Position numbers and translations under genes: made by a program. Positions 19,646-53,667 of a stretch of DNA of 64,000 bases are shown here, piece after piece. Within the stretch, counting starts at the first letter, position 1; each line of letters begins with the position of its first letter. Source of the DNA: Bradyrhizobium sp. CB1015. GTDB taxonomy: Bacteria > Pseudomonadota > Alphaproteobacteria > Rhizobiales > Xanthobacteraceae. The stretch covers positions 2,790,001-2,854,000 of the forward strand of contig NZ_CP104174.1 in NCBI RefSeq assembly GCF_025200925.1, given 5' to 3'. The notes below the pieces were generated by a model. It saw nothing but the letters and a program-made list of their open reading frames with translations, was not told where the DNA came from and did no database searches.

Positions 19646-20158
19646 TCAGCGTGCGCGACCAATCCACGCCGCCAGCTCGCGCCAGGGCTCCAGCGCCCAA
19701 CTGCCTGACGCAGCCCCGGAGGGCGACGGCAGCACGAATATCTCCGGCCCGCTCTCCTCGCGCACCTGCCGCCCCAGCGCAATCGCTGCCGACGGCCTGC
19801 CGTAAAACAGGCTCGCCGCCTTCTTGCTCGTGAACGCAATCGTGTGCGGCCGATACTTGTCCATCTTCGCCCTGAACCCCGGCACGTCGATCGTCTCCGC
19901 CGCGATCTGGTGATCCATCCCGGCGCCGGTCTTGCAGAGATCGGTGAAGCCGATCCCGAGTTCGATCAGGCTTGCGAACTCGCTCGGCTGATAGCGCCGC
20001 GGCGTGATCCCGGCCTCGTGGATCGCGCGCCAGAAGCGGTTGCCGGGATGGGCGTAATAGTGCCCGAGTGCGGCCGAGCGGGTCGAGGCGGCGGTGCCGA
20101 CAAAGACGAGGCGGAGCTTCGGGCGGAGCTGGTCGGGGAGGCGGTGAGTTGCATCCAA
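19646..20158 (-). CDS. mug: Mismatch-specific (G/U, G/T) DNA glycosylase
   Basis: Uracil-DNA-glycosylase superfamily, 170 residues. It has FVGTAASTRSAALGHYYAHPGNRFWRAIHEAG with the HPGNRFW substrate-binding signature, GIGFTDLCKTGAG, and near the end VLPSPSGAASG (the Ser-Pro-Ser-Gly loop). It removes uracil or thymine from mispairs. It appears to start with TTG (MDATHRLPDQ), since no in-frame ATG precedes the conserved region. It is the intact copy of a tandem duplication and sits 21 bases downstream of the toxin gene. Confidence 0.9.
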   Translation of the reverse strand: MDATHRLPDQLRPKLRLVFVGTAASTRSAALGHYYAHPGNRFWRAIHEAGITPRRYQPSEFASLIELGIGFTDLCKTGAGMDHQIAAETIDVPGFRAKMDKYRPHTIAFTSKKAASLFYGRPSAAIALGRQVREESGPEIFVLPSPSGAASGSWALEPWRELAAWIGRAR

Positions 20159-20179
20159 GTCAATCGTCCGTGGCTACGC

Positions 20180-20473
20180 TTACTCGTCCTTCTTGCGGGC
20201 TTCGCGGCCGTGCCATATCCGCGTGATCAGGATGTTTTGCGTTTCCGCCAAGACGGCATACCGCACGATGTAGCCGGACGCGCCAAAGCGAACCACGATC
20301 TGGCGGAGCTCGGCGTCTTCGGTCTGCATGCCCAGGTTGGGAAACTCCTCCAACTGTTCGATCGCCCGCCAGATCGAAGCGAGCGCGCGTTGCGCGGCGG
20401 CCGGGCTGTGTTGATCGAGAAAAAGCCGCAGTCGCTCGACGTCCTCGACAGCGTCGGGCGAAAGCAGGATCAT
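20180..20473 (-). CDS. RelE/ParE-family toxin of a type II toxin-antitoxin pair
   Basis: 97 residues with ParE/RelE features: MILLSPDAVEDVERLRLFL, AQRALASIWRAIEQLEEFPNLGM, then GASGYIVRYAVLAETQNILITRIWHGREAR, the typical terminal strands and basic end. The gene overlaps the antitoxin stop by four bases (ATGA), as normal for such pairs. ParE members poison gyrase and RelE members cleave mRNA; the sequence alone does not decide, though the R-W-H-GRE end is ParE-like. Confidence 0.9.
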   Translation of the reverse strand: MILLSPDAVEDVERLRLFLDQHSPAAAQRALASIWRAIEQLEEFPNLGMQTEDAELRQIVVRFGASGYIVRYAVLAETQNILITRIWHGREARKKDE

Positions 20474-20757
20474 CCAATCTTGCGCGCCACCGGCCGCGGC
20501 AGCTCCTTCGCCGAGCCCCAGCTCGCGACCCAGTCCTTCACCTCATTGAGCGGCACGGCGGCGCCGCTCTTGCGGAAATCATCCAGCCGCAGGCGATCCT
20601 CGGCGATGTCGGGGCCGGAGATATCGACCACGGAATCGAGCAGCGCCACGGCCTCCGCGAGCACAGCGGCGACATCCTGCCCGCGCTCGTCGGCCATCTC
20701 GCGCAAACGCGCGTCGGTTTCGGCGTCGATGTCCAGCGTGCGGCGAATGATGTTCAT
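20470..20757 (-). CDS. Ribbon-helix-helix antitoxin
   Basis: 95 residues: MNIIRRTLDIDAETDARLREMADERGQDVAAVLAEAVALL is a short N-terminal strand plus helices, as in CopG/ParD antitoxins that bind their own promoter. The C-terminal half (DDFRKSGAAVPLNEVKDWVASWG) should wrap the toxin. It ends LPRPVARKIG. The start at 20757 excludes an extension to 20808. Remains of a second antitoxin lie upstream at 21137-21169. Confidence 0.88.
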   Translation of the reverse strand: MNIIRRTLDIDAETDARLREMADERGQDVAAVLAEAVALLDSVVDISGPDIAEDRLRLDDFRKSGAAVPLNEVKDWVASWGSAKELPRPVARKIG

Positions 20758-20798
20758 ATCATTAGGATAAGCGCGGAGCGTGATTTTGTCGAGGCGCC

Positions 20799-21029
20799 CG
20801 TCTTGCAAAGATCGGTGAAGCCGATCCCGAGCGCGATCAGCGCGGCGAACTCGGTTGGCTGACAGCGCCGCGGCGTGATCCAGGCCTCATGGACCGCGCG
20901 CCAGAAGCGGTTGCCGGGATGGGCGTAGTAGTGCCCGAGCTCGGCCGAGCGCGTCGAGGCGGCGGTGCCGACGAAGACGAGGCGGAGGTTGGGGCGGAGT
21001 TGGTCGGGGAGGCGGTGGGTGTCAGCCAA
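20799..21029 (-). pseudogene. Truncated second copy of mug (N-terminal part only)
   Basis: Starts TTG-ADTHRLPDQLRPNLRLVFVGTAASTRSAELGHYYAHPGNRFWRAVHEAW and runs to GIGFTDLCKTGA, where homology to the intact mug stops. By eye the two copies agree at roughly 90% of positions over about 230 bases, including the leader around TCAATCGTCCGT. The catalytic C-terminal loop is missing, so it is non-functional. Confidence 0.88.
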
Positions 21030-21048
21030 GTCAATCGTCCGTCGCGTC

Positions 21049-21133
21049 GTAGCCCGCATGGAGCGAAGCGCAATGCGGGAGCCGGTTCGAAGGAAAAGTG
21101 GTCCCGGATTGCGCTTCGCTCCATCCGGGCTAC
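21049..21133. repeat. REP-like inverted repeat in place of the lost toxin
   Basis: Ends GTAGCCCGCATGGAGCGAAGC and GCTTCGCTCCATCCGGGCTAC are near-perfect inverted repeats. It sits where the toxin gene of the decayed duplicate should be, between the antitoxin remnant and the mug fragment. Confidence 0.75.
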
Positions 21134-21136
21134 GGA

Positions 21137-21169
21137 TCATCCGATTCTGCGCGCCACCGGTCGCGGCAG
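21137..21169 (-). pseudogene. C-terminal remnant of a second antitoxin gene
   Basis: On the minus strand the bases read LPRPVARRIG then TGA, matching the end of the intact antitoxin (LPRPVARKIG) with one change. Upstream of this the match ends. Between here and the thi terminator, an open frame on the plus strand (to 21276) encodes YPEDLGTAIWFYWKSRIAF, possibly the end of another lost gene. Confidence 0.7.
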
Positions 21170-23364: not shown

Positions 23365-23467
23365 TCGTCATCCTGAGGTGCTCGCAGAGCGAGCCTCGAA
23401 GGATGAACGAGCCGGGCCGTCGCCCTTCGAGGGCCGCTGAAGAAGCGGCCACCTCAGGGTGACGGAA
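23365..23467. repeat. Dispersed two-hairpin repeat (family A) inside the thi operon
   Basis: Starts CGTCATCCTGAGGTGCTCGC and continues CTCGAAGGATGAACG, then an inverted second half ending CCACCTCAGGGTGACGG. It belongs to the same family as the composites at 33.5, 36.0, 41.1, 41.5 and 53.5 kb (CCTCAGGATGAGG / CTCGAAGGATG). Lies between thiC and thiE. Confidence 0.7.
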
Positions 23468-24900: not shown

Positions 24901-25024
24901 ATGATCCTGAGGTGCGCGCACTTGCGCGCCTCGAAGGATGACAGCGCCGCTTGCGGCCATCCTTCGAGGCGAGCCGAAGGCGGCTCGCCAGCGACGAGCG
25001 CCATGCGCTCGCGCGGGGATGACG
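24901..25024. repeat. Dispersed repeat (family A variant) between thiG and thiS
   Basis: Two inverted halves: ATGATCCTGAGGTGCGCGCA ... GCGCCTCGAAGGATGACAG, then CCATCCTTCGAGGCGAGCCG ... GGGGATGACGG. Within the thi operon transcript, so its hairpins would be transcribed. Confidence 0.7.
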
Positions 25025-33452: not shown

Positions 33453-33589
33453 GCGCCTCGTCCTTCGAGACGACCGCTTCGCGGTCTCCTCAGGATGAGG
33501 CTTATCGACAGCCGTGCCTGTGAAACACTCGCCTCGCACTCCGTCCTCATCCTGAGGAGCCCGCCGAAGGCGGGCGTCTCGAAGGATGG
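33453..33589. repeat. Dispersed two-hairpin repeat (family A) inside the importer operon
   Basis: CGCCTCGTCCTTCGAGACG ... CTCCTCAGGATGAGG, a spacer, then GTCCTCATCCTGAGGAGCCC ... GGGCGTCTCGAAGGATG. Same order and orientation as the copies that flank the GIY-YIG gene (41062-41200, 41489-41645). Confidence 0.82.
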
Positions 33590-33639
33590 CCGCAACGTCA
33601 CTGCGTTCAATGCGCGCCGCACGTCGGTCGAGTCGCGAT

Positions 33640-36025: not shown

Positions 36026-36234
36026 AGGGACGATCGCTTATGAAAGCTTTCCCTGCGGCCATCCTTCGAGACGCCCACCTTGGGCGGGCTCCTCAAGGAT
36101 GAGGATGGAGTGCGTGGCTGCAGTTTCAAAGGGCACTGACGCCGAATAGCCTCATTCTGAGGTGGCGCGCAAGCGCCGTCTCGAAGGACGAGGCGTGCGC
36201 GCAGGCCGCGCAACAAGTCAAATGTGATAACCCT
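36026..36234. mobile_element. MITE-like composite repeat (full-length family A, degraded ends)
   Basis: Aligns end to end with the element at 53461-53667: AGGG-TATGAAAGC-TTTCCC at one end, then CATCCTTCGAGACGCCC ... CTCCTCAAGGATGAG, CTCATTCTGAGG ... GTCTCGAAGGACGAGGCG, and ACAAGTCAAATGTGATAACCC at the other. The terminal inverted repeat is decayed here. Most of the 35925-36251 gap is this element. Confidence 0.72.
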
Positions 36235-39979: not shown

Positions 39980-40771
39980 ATGACATCGACTGAAAACGTA
40001 AGGACCAACGGACAGACCGCCATGCAGACCCCACCGGTGGTGTCGCCGCAGGACTGGGAGGCGGCCCGTCTGCAACTGCTCGTGAAGGAAAAGGCGCATA
40101 CCCGTGCCCGCGACGCCCTGGCGGCCGAGCGGCGCCGCATGCCGTGGATGGCTGTCGACAAAACCTATGCGTTCGAGGGGCCTGGCGGCAAGGTCAGTTT
40201 GGCTGATCTGTTCCAGGGCCGGCGGCAGTTGATCGTGTATCGCGCCTTCTTCGAGCCCGGCGTGTTCGGCTGGCCCGATCATGCCTGCCGCGGCTGCTCC
40301 ATGGTGGCCGACCAGGTCGCCCATGTCTCGCACTTGAATGCCCGCGATACGACGTTGGTGTTCGCCTCGCGTGCGCCGCAAGCCGACATCGTCAGGCTGA
40401 AAAAGCGGATGGGCTGGACCATGCCGTGGGTCACCATCACCGACAGCTTCGATGCCGATTTCGGCGTGGACGAATGGCACGGCACCAACGTGTTCTACCG
40501 TGACGGGACGCGCATCTTCCGCACCTATTTCGTCAAGAGCCGCGGCGACGAGCAGATGGGCGGCACCTGGAACTATCTCGACATCACCCCGCTCGGCCGG
40601 CAGGAAGTGTGGGAGGACTCGCCGGAAGGCTATCCGCAGACCCCGACCTACAAATGGTGGAACTGGCACGACAGCTACACGGACGGTGCGGCGCCCGACA
40701 AGCGATGGGTGGAGGTCTCGGACGCCGGCGAGAAAGTCTTCCGCGAGGAGGCCGCGGGAGAACGGCAATGA
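39980..40771 (+). CDS. DUF899 family thioredoxin-like protein
   Basis: 263 residues, DUF899 architecture: MPWMAVDKTYAFEGPGGKVSLADLF, the core YRAFFEPGVFGWPDHACRGCSMVADQ with a CxxC-like CRGC motif, then WVTITDSFDADF and ITPLGRQEVWEDSPEGYP. The fold is thioredoxin-like; the two cysteines suggest redox activity. No signal peptide, so probably cytoplasmic. It is divergent from the HTH regulator gene (143 bases apart) and overlaps the next gene by four bases, an operon of two. Confidence 0.9.
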   Translation: MTSTENVRTNGQTAMQTPPVVSPQDWEAARLQLLVKEKAHTRARDALAAERRRMPWMAVDKTYAFEGPGGKVSLADLFQGRRQLIVYRAFFEPGVFGWPDHACRGCSMVADQVAHVSHLNARDTTLVFASRAPQADIVRLKKRMGWTMPWVTITDSFDADFGVDEWHGTNVFYRDGTRIFRTYFVKSRGDEQMGGTWNYLDITPLGRQEVWEDSPEGYPQTPTYKWWNWHDSYTDGAAPDKRWVEVSDAGEKVFREEAAGERQ

Positions 40772-41046: not shown

Positions 41047-41061
41047 GCGCTCCGCCGGTGT

Positions 41062-41200
41062 GAACGCCTCGTCCTTCGAGACGGCGCTTACGCGCCTCCT
41101 CAGGATGAGGCTAATCGACACCGGAGCGGGGGTTAGAGAGCTGCCCCGCACTCAGTCCTCATCCTGAGGGCCCGCCGGAGGCGGGCGTCTCGAAGGATGA
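41062..41200. repeat. Family A repeat, left copy flanking the GIY-YIG gene
   Basis: GAACGCCTCGTCCTTCGAGA ... GCGCCTCCTCAGGATGAGGC, spacer, then CAGTCCTCATCCTGAGGG ... GCGGGCGTCTCGAAGGATG. Two hairpins in tandem. It overlaps the 3' end of the GIY-YIG frame. Confidence 0.85.
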
Positions 41201-41485
41201 TGTGATCCGCGCTTTGCCAACACATGCAGCTCGGCAAAATCGCCGAGCATGAAGGCTTCTTGGCGCGGCTCCATTCTTGAGTTTGCGCTCGCACTCGATT
41301 GCATCGGTGATGCGGTCGAACCATTGCGAGAATATCAACGTCACGGGGCGACGCGACTTGGTGTAGCCCTCGAACGTGCCAGCGTTGTGTTGCGCGATCC
41401 TGATCTCGAGCTCGGTGCGGGTCGTGCCGATGTAGTAGCTGCCGTCCGCGCATTGGAGAATGTAGAGGTACGCGCCGTCTGTCAT
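41159..41485 (-). pseudogene. GIY-YIG nuclease domain protein, doubly frameshifted, between two repeats
   Basis: The UvrC-like N-domain reads AYLYILQCADGSYYIGTTRTELEIRIAQHNAG and DAIECERKLK, with the GIY-YIG signature split as LYILQ/YYIGT. The frame then departs from the family. Two one-base deletions about 18 bases apart, near 41272-41275 and 41253-41256, restore a WSRAKK-type segment and then AFMLGDFAELHVLAKRG. It starts three bases from repeat copy 41489-41645 and ends inside copy 41062-41200. It may be a small homing-type or repair nuclease. The open frame gives 108 residues as written. Confidence 0.75.
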
Positions 41486-41488
41486 CGT

Positions 41489-41645
41489 GAACGCCTCGTC
41501 CTTCGAGACGCGCGCAAGGGCGCGCTCCTCAGGATGAGGCTAACTGGCAGCCGAGACCTAGCGCAAGTACCGCGGACAAATTGCGACCCGCGCACACTCA
41601 GTCCTCATCCTGAGGGCCCGCCGCAGGCGGGCGTCTCGAAGGATG
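41489..41645. repeat. Family A repeat, right copy flanking the GIY-YIG gene
   Basis: GAACGCCTCGTCCTTCGAGA ... CGCGCTCCTCAGGATGAGGC, spacer, then CAGTCCTCATCCTGAGGG ... GCGGGCGTCTCGAAGGATG. Same orientation as the left copy (41062), that is, a direct repeat. Its left border is three bases from the GIY-YIG start codon. Confidence 0.85.
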
Positions 41646-41694
41646 CGCCACAATCGCCGATGCCAAACGAGGGCGGTTCGGCATCACCGGGTCT

Positions 41695-42111
41695 TCACTG
41701 CGGCGCCGCCTGAAGATAAGCAACGATCTTGCCCGCTTCCTCCGCCGAGATGCCGCCATAGGGCTGCATCTTGTGGCCGGACACGACCTCGTCCGGCTTG
41801 ACCATGAAGCGGGTGAGCTTGTCCTGGTCCCAGACGAAGCCGGCGTCCTTCATCGACGAGGAATAATTGTAGTCCGGCAGCGAGCCGGCCTTGCGTCCGA
41901 CGATCCTGTTGAGGTTGGGACCGAGGCGATTGTCGCCTTCCTTCATGGAATGGCAGGTGCGGCAGGAATTGTTGAAGGCCTGCTGGCCGGTGTCGTCATG
42001 CGCGGGTTGCTGCGCGAGCGAGCAGGGCGCGGACACGAGCAGCGTCAGTGCTCCGGCGCCGGCGAGGGCGTGCAGCCATGGGCTTGGCGAGGGGGGCCTT
42101 CGTGATCGCAT
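41695..42111 (-). CDS. Cytochrome c (class I, monoheme)
   Basis: 138 residues. A signal peptide-like start (MRSRRPPSP...GALTLLVSAPCSLA) leads to a c-type cytochrome domain: heme-binding CRTCH with Cys50, Cys53 and axial His54, and the sixth ligand Met115 in SGHKMQPYGG. It resembles small cytochrome c553/c2-type electron carriers of alphaproteobacteria. Periplasmic; redox partner unknown. The signal peptide has two Arg before the hydrophobic core. Confidence 0.9.
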   Translation of the reverse strand: MRSRRPPSPSPWLHALAGAGALTLLVSAPCSLAQQPAHDDTGQQAFNNSCRTCHSMKEGDNRLGPNLNRIVGRKAGSLPDYNYSSSMKDAGFVWDQDKLTRFMVKPDEVVSGHKMQPYGGISAEEAGKIVAYLQAAPQ

Positions 42112-42170
42112 TTGCGCCCTCCATCGGGATCGCGCCACAGCAGGCGCAACGGGGATGTCGAGGCAAACGA

Positions 42171-42200
42171 AAACGGCCCCGGCGGGTTCCGGGGCCGTTT
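42171..42200. terminator. Intrinsic terminator
   Basis: Stem AAACGGCCCCGG / CCGGGGCCGTTT, loop CGGGTT. Lies just beyond the 3' end of the L,D-transpeptidase gene (ending 42222) on the minus strand, between it and the cytochrome c gene. Confidence 0.8.
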
Positions 42201-42221
42201 GCGTCACGATGTCCTGTCGCT

Positions 42222-42944
42222 TCAGCGGCTCGCGGCGCCGAGGTCCGCACGGCGCTCGGTCATCGGCAGCACGATCACCCTGGTGCCGACGTTGACGCGG
42301 GAATAGAGGTCGGTGACGTCCTCGTTGGTCATGCGGATGCAGCCGGAGGAGACGCGCTTGCCGATGGTTTCGGGGGCGTTGGTGCCATGGATGCGGTAGA
42401 TGGTGCCGCCGAGATACATCGCACGGGCCCCCAACGGATTGCCGGGGCCGCCGGCCATGTGGCGCGGCAGATAGGGCTGGCGGGCGATCATCTCCGGGGG
42501 CGGCGTCCAGGCCGGCCACTCGGCCTTGCGGCTCACCGACTGGATGCCTGACCAGGTGAAGCCGTCGCGGCCGACGCCGATGCCGTAGCGCAGCGCCTGG
42601 CCGCCTCCGAGCACGTAATAGAGATAGGTGTTGGGCGTATCGATGATGATCGTGCCCGGCGCCTCGCGCGTCGCGTAAGAAACGGTCTGGCGGCGGAAGC
42701 GGGCCGGCAGCTCAACGGCGTCCTGATCCTCGGGCTCGGTCTGGTAGGTCGGCGCCTGATAGGGCTGATACGGCTGATAGGGTTGCAGCGGCTGCGGCGC
42801 GGTCATCGGCGGCAGCGGCTGGAAGAACGGGAAGATCTGCACCGGCGCGGCCTTGGCTGCGCTAGCGAACGCGATTGCGGAGACCGCGACGGCACTGAGT
42901 GCAACGGCGCGCGAAAACGTCTTGAACGTGTCCAGATTGAACAT
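42222..42944 (-). CDS. L,D-transpeptidase (YkuD domain), second copy
   Basis: 240 residues. Signal peptide MFNLDTFKTFSRAVALSAVAVSAIAFASAAKA, a Pro/Gln-rich linker (QPYQPYQPYQ), then a YkuD domain: GTIIIDTPNTYLYYVLGGGQALRYGIGVGRDGFTW, HGTNAPETIGKRV and SSGCIRM with catalytic Cys and the usual Arg. It is closely similar to the domain of the gene at 2145-3344 (same PNTYLYYVLGGG and GRDGFTW segments), but has a short linker and the canonical Arg. Confidence 0.93.
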   Translation of the reverse strand: MFNLDTFKTFSRAVALSAVAVSAIAFASAAKAAPVQIFPFFQPLPPMTAPQPLQPYQPYQPYQAPTYQTEPEDQDAVELPARFRRQTVSYATREAPGTIIIDTPNTYLYYVLGGGQALRYGIGVGRDGFTWSGIQSVSRKAEWPAWTPPPEMIARQPYLPRHMAGGPGNPLGARAMYLGGTIYRIHGTNAPETIGKRVSSGCIRMTNEDVTDLYSRVNVGTRVIVLPMTERRADLGAASR

Positions 42945-45000: not shown

Positions 45001-45112
45001 CGCTCCTCATGGTGAGGAGGCGCATAGCGCCGTCTCGAACCATGAAGGCCTCGGTGCTGCAGCCGGGCCTTCATCCTTCGAGACGCGCGTTCCGCGCTCC
45101 TCAGGATGAGGA
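45001..45112. repeat. Dispersed repeat (family A variant)
   Basis: CTCCTCATGGTGAGGAGGCG ... CGTCTCGAACCATG, then CATCCTTCGAGACGCGCG ... GCTCCTCAGGATGAGGAG. Two hairpins in a modified order. Lies between pmtA and the Mpo1-like gene. Confidence 0.7.
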
Positions 45113-53460: not shown

Positions 53461-53667
53461 AGGGCTATCGCATTTGAGAGCTTTTCCCTGCAGCCATCCT
53501 TCGAGACGCCCGCTTTGGGCGGGCTCCTCAGGATGAGGGCGGAGTGCGCGGCAGCAGTTTCAACGAACACTGACGCTGATTAGCCTCATCCTGAGGAGGC
53601 GCGTAAGCGCCGTCTCGAAGGACGAGGCGTGCGCGCAGGCCGCCGCCACAAGTCATATGCGATAGCC
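53461..53667. mobile_element. MITE-like element with near-perfect terminal inverted repeat (family A, full length)
   Basis: 207 bases. AGGGCTATCGCATTTGA at one end and TCATATGCGATAGCCCT at the other pair at 16 of 17 positions. The inside is the two-hairpin family A core in the orientation opposite to the copies at 33.5 and 41 kb. No coding capacity. A full-length but decayed relative is at 36026-36234. Confidence 0.8.

Follow-up and report, generated by a model that had tools for sequence, protein, structure and literature searches.

Small GIY-YIG nuclease genes of Bradyrhizobium and other Pseudomonadota usually lie beside tagged palindromic repeats that vary with the nuclease clade

The stretch of Bradyrhizobium sp. 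CB1015 DNA analysed here (the window: 64,000 nt, G000:C1:2790001-2854000, from a genome of 8.41 Mb in one contig) carries a GIY-YIG nuclease gene with a composite repeat on either side (Table 1). The left composite consists of two hairpins, at approximately 41067-41113 and 41155-41203, in inverted orientation and separated by a spacer. That the same two-hairpin composite stands in the same orientation on both sides of the gene, as the original prediction had it, is confirmed by three blocks common to the left and right copies, of 51, 24 and 31 nt with identities of 98%, 100% and 84%, respectively. The placement of the frame was likewise as described: it adjoins the right copy, starting 2 bases from the common block, and terminates inside the left one. 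Residues 6-72 of the 108-residue ORF product match Pfam PF01541 at a score of 55.3 bits (cut-off 22.6). Relative to shuffled sequences, the single-strand fold z is -6.79 for the left composite (-3.84 and -4.16 for its two hairpins) and -5.90 for the right composite (41492-41641), with -2.58 for the hairpin 41600-41648. In the predicted composite fold the outer arms pair together and the inner arms pair together, a REPIN-like arrangement.

Table 1. Coordinates, within the window, of the nuclease locus and of further copies of its repeat family.
Feature	Position	Strand	Remarks
Left composite	41060..41203	+	CCTC-tagged; 3' of the nuclease gene, overlapping the gene end
GIY-YIG nuclease gene	41159..41485	-	108-aa open frame; PF01541
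Right composite	41487..41648	+	Oriented like the left one; directly 5' of the nuclease gene
DUF899 gene, left neighbour	39980..40771	+	278.6 bits; aids recognition of the orthologous site
ORF with cytochrome c domain, right neighbour	41695..42519	-	Orthologous-site marker
Full composite without nuclease gene	33459..33590	+	Site with or without composite in relatives
Full composite without nuclease gene	53495..53625	+	Repeat family copy
Single hairpin of the window repeat family	45072..45110	-	Motif match
Single hairpin of the window repeat family, GTC-tag variant	23367..23405	+	Motif match
Degenerate composite	36060..36190	+	Repeat family copy

The repeat is enriched well beyond this locus. 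Allowing at most one mismatch, the window holds 11 matches to CTCATCCTGAG where 1.34 would be expected, a count reached in 0 of 100 shuffles. The earlier statement that at least five more copies occur in the window holds only with single hairpins and degenerate copies included, full composites numbering two; more arm-like motif matches lie near 24930-24968 and 30050. A hairpin pattern for the family returns 161 matches in the 8.41-Mb genome (84 + 77) and its reversed-pattern control none. Judged by eye among the matches listed, which reach to about 4.8 Mb, no site other than the GIY-YIG locus has two composites 150-1500 bases apart. As a separate observation, tandem mini-arrays that contain the REP, with hairpins evenly spaced by about 239, 261 and 192 bases, are seen at G135:C1:3648141-3649376 and 404743-405303, and at G022:C4:236710-237134.

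In a protein tree for Bradyrhizobium, clades 2 and 3 are each set apart with full support; the window type, clade 1, does not emerge as a single clade, and two frameshifted rows sit on long branches. Five PF01541 matches occur in the source genome in all. There, a clade 2 gene (L003) has a related repeat on both sides, the flanks of a clade 3 gene (L002) carry another CGTC repeat, L004 is UvrC-like judging by its length, and L005 (G000:C1:273010-273168) is a short GIY-YIG frame that falls below our cut-off for a common flanking repeat; by eye, L005 adjoins a stretch resembling a tRNA as well as other palindromes. Among solved structures, the nearest in sequence are the UPF0213 GIY-YIG proteins 1zg2 and 1ywl, and neither PADLOC nor NCBIfam returned a match for three representatives (L041, L003, L002).

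The predicted GIY-YIG frame stands as a PF01541 protein but not as an intact one. Two small deletions, amounting to a net loss of 5 bases, distinguish the window gene from its relatives, and its last third is scrambled, out of frame with respect to the others. About seven further genes among the 71 of clades 1 and 2 look broken: L037, L044, L053, L055, L064 and L101 are interrupted by stops or frameshifted and L105 looks shifted. Intact relatives encode proteins of approximately 93-114 aa, whose invariant columns in an alignment of 11 members include Y8, Y18, G20, R29, H33, E66 and K70, and their median dN/dS values of 0.076, 0.069 and 0.059 correspond to strong purifying selection. The paired system is real in the genus, and the window copy is probably a decayed member, probably no longer functional.

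The association between gene and repeat was examined with a flank test in which no repeat is named: the left and right 450-base flanks of a gene are locally aligned with each other, and a score of at least 40 counts as positive. For the genus, 93 loci were collected and two truncated ones (L081, L100) dropped, and controls were positions shifted by 900 bases within the same loci. A repeat common to both flanks was found for 82 of 91 genes against 1 of 184 shifted controls. The expectation that genes of this type across Bradyrhizobium are usually flanked by a common repeat is thus borne out by the data, and the opposite possibility, that the repeat stands beside unrelated genes at the same rate, fails against those controls and against the 62 predicted genes of the window, of which 3 are positive, all at one unrelated duplication. 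The nine genus loci below the cut-off are L005, L058, L059, L060, L062, L063, L065, L069 and L086; seven of them belong to subclade 1b, where CCTC composites lie mostly on the 5' side only. A set of named records gave 31 positive loci out of 40, with no control of its own and with genomes that largely overlap the genus set.

Two observations made along the way concern other matters. At 19922-21140 of the window, direct 253-bp copies with 89% identity enclose two frames, one for a ParE-like toxin (20180-20473, PF05016) and one of 112 aa with no Pfam match. An ORF with a uracil-DNA-glycosylase domain is nearby, and the arrangement looks like a toxin-antitoxin module within a local duplication. 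The record JAUEPE010000005.1 (L334), titled Frankia sp. RB7, carries a Bradyrhizobium clade 1 gene, and its title is probably wrong.

Among close homologues from Pseudomonadota other than Bradyrhizobium, 62 of 83 were positive against 8 of 160 shifted controls, which are not clean, and the remaining 21 fell below the cut-off. This set began with 89 loci, from which four of the same genus were dropped and two truncated ones (L165, L208) were left unscored; some genomes contribute two or three loci, and 60 added loci were hand-picked from the matches listed, roughly best first. Weak homologues, classed as UPF0213/YhbQ-like by their weaker scores, gave 0 positives out of 30 against 1 of 59 controls; they come from 30 hand-picked genomes with one weak match each, other genomes than those of the close homologues. 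UPF0213 proteins have the same domain and a similar size, and it is the common flanking repeat that sets the close homologues of the window gene apart from them, although the lack of a dedicated repeat in UPF0213 is our own finding and not a published criterion. Counting perfect-stem hairpins with a CGTC, TGTC or CCTC tag near and far from the gene, a test that mostly misses the window's own repeat family with its interrupted stems, gave 89/132 near versus 13/48 far in the phylum set, 31/101 versus 5/48 in the genus set, 2/16 versus 1/14 in the named set and 1/6 versus 2/14 in the weak set. The earlier caveat that the association might be due to chance is ruled out by the genus and phylum counts of the flank test: the association of the GIY-YIG gene with the repeat is not fortuitous.

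The identity of the repeat follows the clade of the nuclease. Flanking hairpins carry the CCTC tag in 88 of 89 cases at clade 1 genes and the CGTC tag in 82 of 83 at clade 2 genes. With a strict hairpin pattern, the 34 clade 1 loci divide into 22 with hairpins on both flanks, 11 on one flank and 1 on none, and the 37 clade 2 loci into 22, 13 and 2, respectively. Eight genomes hold clades 1 and 2 together, and in all seven of those examined the only tag beside either gene is its own. Within clade 3 the pairing runs subclade by subclade, with CGTCATGGCCGGG, TGTCATCGCCCGG and CGTCATGCCCCGC repeats.

Repeat abundance is tag-specific as well. Across 146 genomes, and ignoring shared ancestry, the median number of CCTC hairpins per genome is 58 with clade 1 (33 genomes) and 17 without (p 4e-6), and is indifferent to clade 2 (23 with, 21 without, p 0.44). 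The median of CGTC hairpins in the same 146 genomes, shared ancestry again ignored, is 11 with clade 2 (35 genomes) and 2 without (p 1e-8), against 3 and 3 with and without clade 1 (p 0.19). Clade labels were assigned here from the match list by E-value, and broken full-length copies count as presence of a clade while partial clade 1 remnants do not. Exceptions are numerous: 53 genomes without clade 1 hold at least 20 CCTC hairpins, and clade 2 is absent from 10 of the 20 genomes with at least 20 CGTC hairpins.

Such repeat-rich genomes without the nuclease, together with the fact that most of the 161 copies in the source genome have no such gene near them (there are five PF01541 matches), would suit a simple alternative, in which REPs collect in intergenic space and the gene family merely tolerates or attracts their insertion. 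We consider this very unlikely given the flank sharing in genus and phylum, its absence from UPF0213-like genes of similar size (in other genomes), the match of tag to clade inside single genomes and the dependence of abundance on the tag.

The tags also place the repeats in a described class. CGTC-class REPs have the tag CGTC with variants CCTC and TGTC, form mostly head-to-head dimers and are found mostly in alpha-proteobacteria, Bradyrhizobium included, according to the available portion of PMC3733652, which also gives Bradyrhizobium CGTC-1 loops of other length and composition. With CCTC or CGTC at the hairpin end in the proportions given above, the window repeats are CGTC-class REPs as far as sequence can tell. 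The class is further characterised by a stem of 8-9 bp, a loop of 4-5 bp and a CCA tail; repeats of clade 3 combine a tag of this class with a CCA-like tail, and the window hairpins have longer, interrupted stems.

REPs of another tag are presumably served by RAYTs, and the comparison is instructive. In RAYT systems with GTAG REPs and REPINs, as presented in the accessible parts of PMC2817692, PMC3116915 and PMC3733652, the gene is flanked by its presumed target repeat family and the pairing is family-specific, which is the likeness; the difference is that the enzyme is a tyrosine transposase and the tag another one. A REPtron is a REP-flanked tyrosine transposase gene, and the partner here is a GIY-YIG protein. 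One could still imagine a RAYT-type transposase elsewhere in the genome that moves the repeats, the GIY-YIG gene having nothing to do with their spread, because the inverted two-hairpin composites resemble REPINs, which are thought to be served by RAYTs (PMC3116915, PMC2817692, in the parts available). We give this reading the least credence of all. The one Y1_Tnp match found in the genome is weak (24.7 bits), and CGTC-class repeats were reported in 2013 without association to transposase genes and, in the portion of PMC3733652 at hand, without any protein partner being named. That sole match, L156 (G000:C1:4537736-4538032), was considered as a partner and rejected, there being no CCTC or CGTC repeats in the 3.3 kb around it; by eye the palindrome beside it is another one, GTAGCCCGGATGG with its inverse.

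Orthologous sites were retrieved using part of the cytochrome c ORF (41695-42519) as query. Of 30 sites beside this gene, 10 are filled, meaning that both composites and a nuclease gene, whole or damaged, are present; a solo composite stands at 3, another 5 are damaged, partial or remnant sites (one of them where the contig ends), and the remaining 12 gave no motif match. Among the last, four lack the left neighbour within 1.5 kb and one retains, by eye, part of an arm. The solo composites look, by eye, like the left or the right copy, which is what a deletion between direct repeats would produce. When loci are clustered by their short distal flanks, with an outcome that depends on the settings, the 34 clade 1 loci fall into 3-5 contexts, with 20-23 loci at a single one, and the 37 clade 2 loci into 12-14.

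A clade 1 cassette is also found at ackA in G133 and G082, the only genomes that match across the cassette among the matches listed. None of 17 other ackA sites has a nuclease cassette, and their intergenic sequence is short or unrelated save in G086, which has family hairpins without the gene; the other 16 are free of the family motif. The composite at 33459-33590 was tried as a clean insertion with target duplication and discarded: G079, G080, G095 and G117 miss about 240-260 bases of the query, a gap that includes roughly 50-75 bases on each side of the composite, between flanks 92-98% identical. Empty and filled sites thus compared, as had been proposed, gave no target-site duplication and no clean insertion boundary, at that composite or at the ackA cassette.

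The coexistence of solo and filled composites at one orthologous site, the agreement of the nuclease with its flanking tag and the occurrence of one clade in several contexts invite a homing interpretation, GIY-YIG enzymes being generally known to include homing nucleases: the cassette would spread by cutting resident composites of its family, and repair would copy composite, gene and composite into the break. We find this improbable, if less so than the two alternatives above. Deletion between direct repeats explains the solo sites equally well, clade 1 sits mostly at one locus, and 16 of the 17 other sites of the ackA cassette are without the family motif. The gene of a homing endonuclease element splits its recognition site and has empty counterparts of that site; here solo and filled sites both occur, but the two flanking composites are complete.

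A closer precedent comes from Neisseria meningitidis, where Ssn proteins (Nat Commun 2025, by Chenal, Veyrier and others) are reportedly GIY-YIG nucleases that cut single-stranded DNA at the NTS repeat, and many homologues with matching sequences are said to be part of the same report. By description, the likeness consists in a small stand-alone GIY-YIG protein joined to a dispersed, multi-copy palindromic repeat; particular to the present case are the REPIN-like two-hairpin composites, the CCTC and CGTC tags and the position of the gene between direct copies. The original prediction had regarded a repeat plus endonuclease system as unfamiliar, but Ssn/NTS is reportedly of the same kind. The Bradyrhizobium host, unlike Neisseria, is not known to be naturally competent. 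Some loci of the phylum set are flanked by GTCATTCCCGCG(C/A)AGGCGGGAATCCA, which we take to resemble dRS3. As Neisseria CGTC-1 repeats are equated with dRS3 in the available part of PMC3733652, the link to Ssn is a natural one. Within the literature as far as its text was available, no paper was found that joins GIY-YIG genes with CGTC-class repeats, and the accessible text of the GIY-YIG superfamily paper PMC1564403 makes no mention of palindromes, flanking or Bradyrhizobium.

We conclude, with a probability of roughly three in four, that these genes encode small, free-standing GIY-YIG nucleases of one family, each paired as cognate enzyme with one CGTC-class REP family, in the manner of Ssn/NTS. 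Usually the gene lies within or beside copies of one REP family, the family varies with the nuclease clade, and each tag varies in abundance with its own clade. Mechanistically, the nuclease would recognise the four-base tag, CCTC in the case of the window clade and CGTC in that of clade 2, together with the hairpin, and nick it when the DNA is single-stranded, at replication forks or during uptake or conjugation. Nicking and repair may sustain the repeat family and may occasionally move composites or the whole cassette, and recombination between the direct composites could remove the gene and leave a solo copy, much like a solo LTR. Cleavage and mobilisation by the nuclease are here what we infer from sequence comparison. 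It had been suggested that the nuclease maintains or mobilises the repeats: the clade-specific link and the tracking of abundance fit maintenance, but mobilisation fares less well, as neither boundary nor duplication was found, many repeat-rich genomes lack the gene and clade 1 is mostly confined to one locus.

It is conceivable, though we would not favour it, that the pair serves mainly as a filter of incoming single-stranded DNA, during uptake or conjugation, kept by selection on gene exchange rather than on the spread of the repeats; this role would be compatible with the nuclease-REP pairing itself. Ssn/NTS is said to modulate natural transformation in Neisseria, and the purifying selection on the nuclease agrees with such a function, against which stands the lack of a PADLOC match for the three representatives.

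To the kind of system represented by Ssn/NTS, the nuclease-REP pairing contributes a tag code, the distinction of cassette and solo states, and counts across the phylum. A broader reading, which we put forward tentatively and as rather less probable than its contrary, would make the CGTC-class REPs of Pseudomonadota the dependent partners of one nuclease family, whose clades read the tag as a code (CC versus CG in its first two bases, in Bradyrhizobium) and whose cassette is mobile and collapsible to solo composites. If true, the RAYT-REPIN system would have a counterpart built on a GIY-YIG enzyme. CGTC-class REPs, present in many alpha-proteobacteria, have been described without an associated transposase, and a GIY-YIG partner is what we find beside them here. 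With this pairing, natural combinations of enzyme and target are many; they include two related clades that differ in the tag of their targets and occur together in eight genomes, so that tag recognition, repeat upkeep and repeat spread become directly testable. More generally, sequence-specific nucleases could be sought through the repeats that adjoin their genes.
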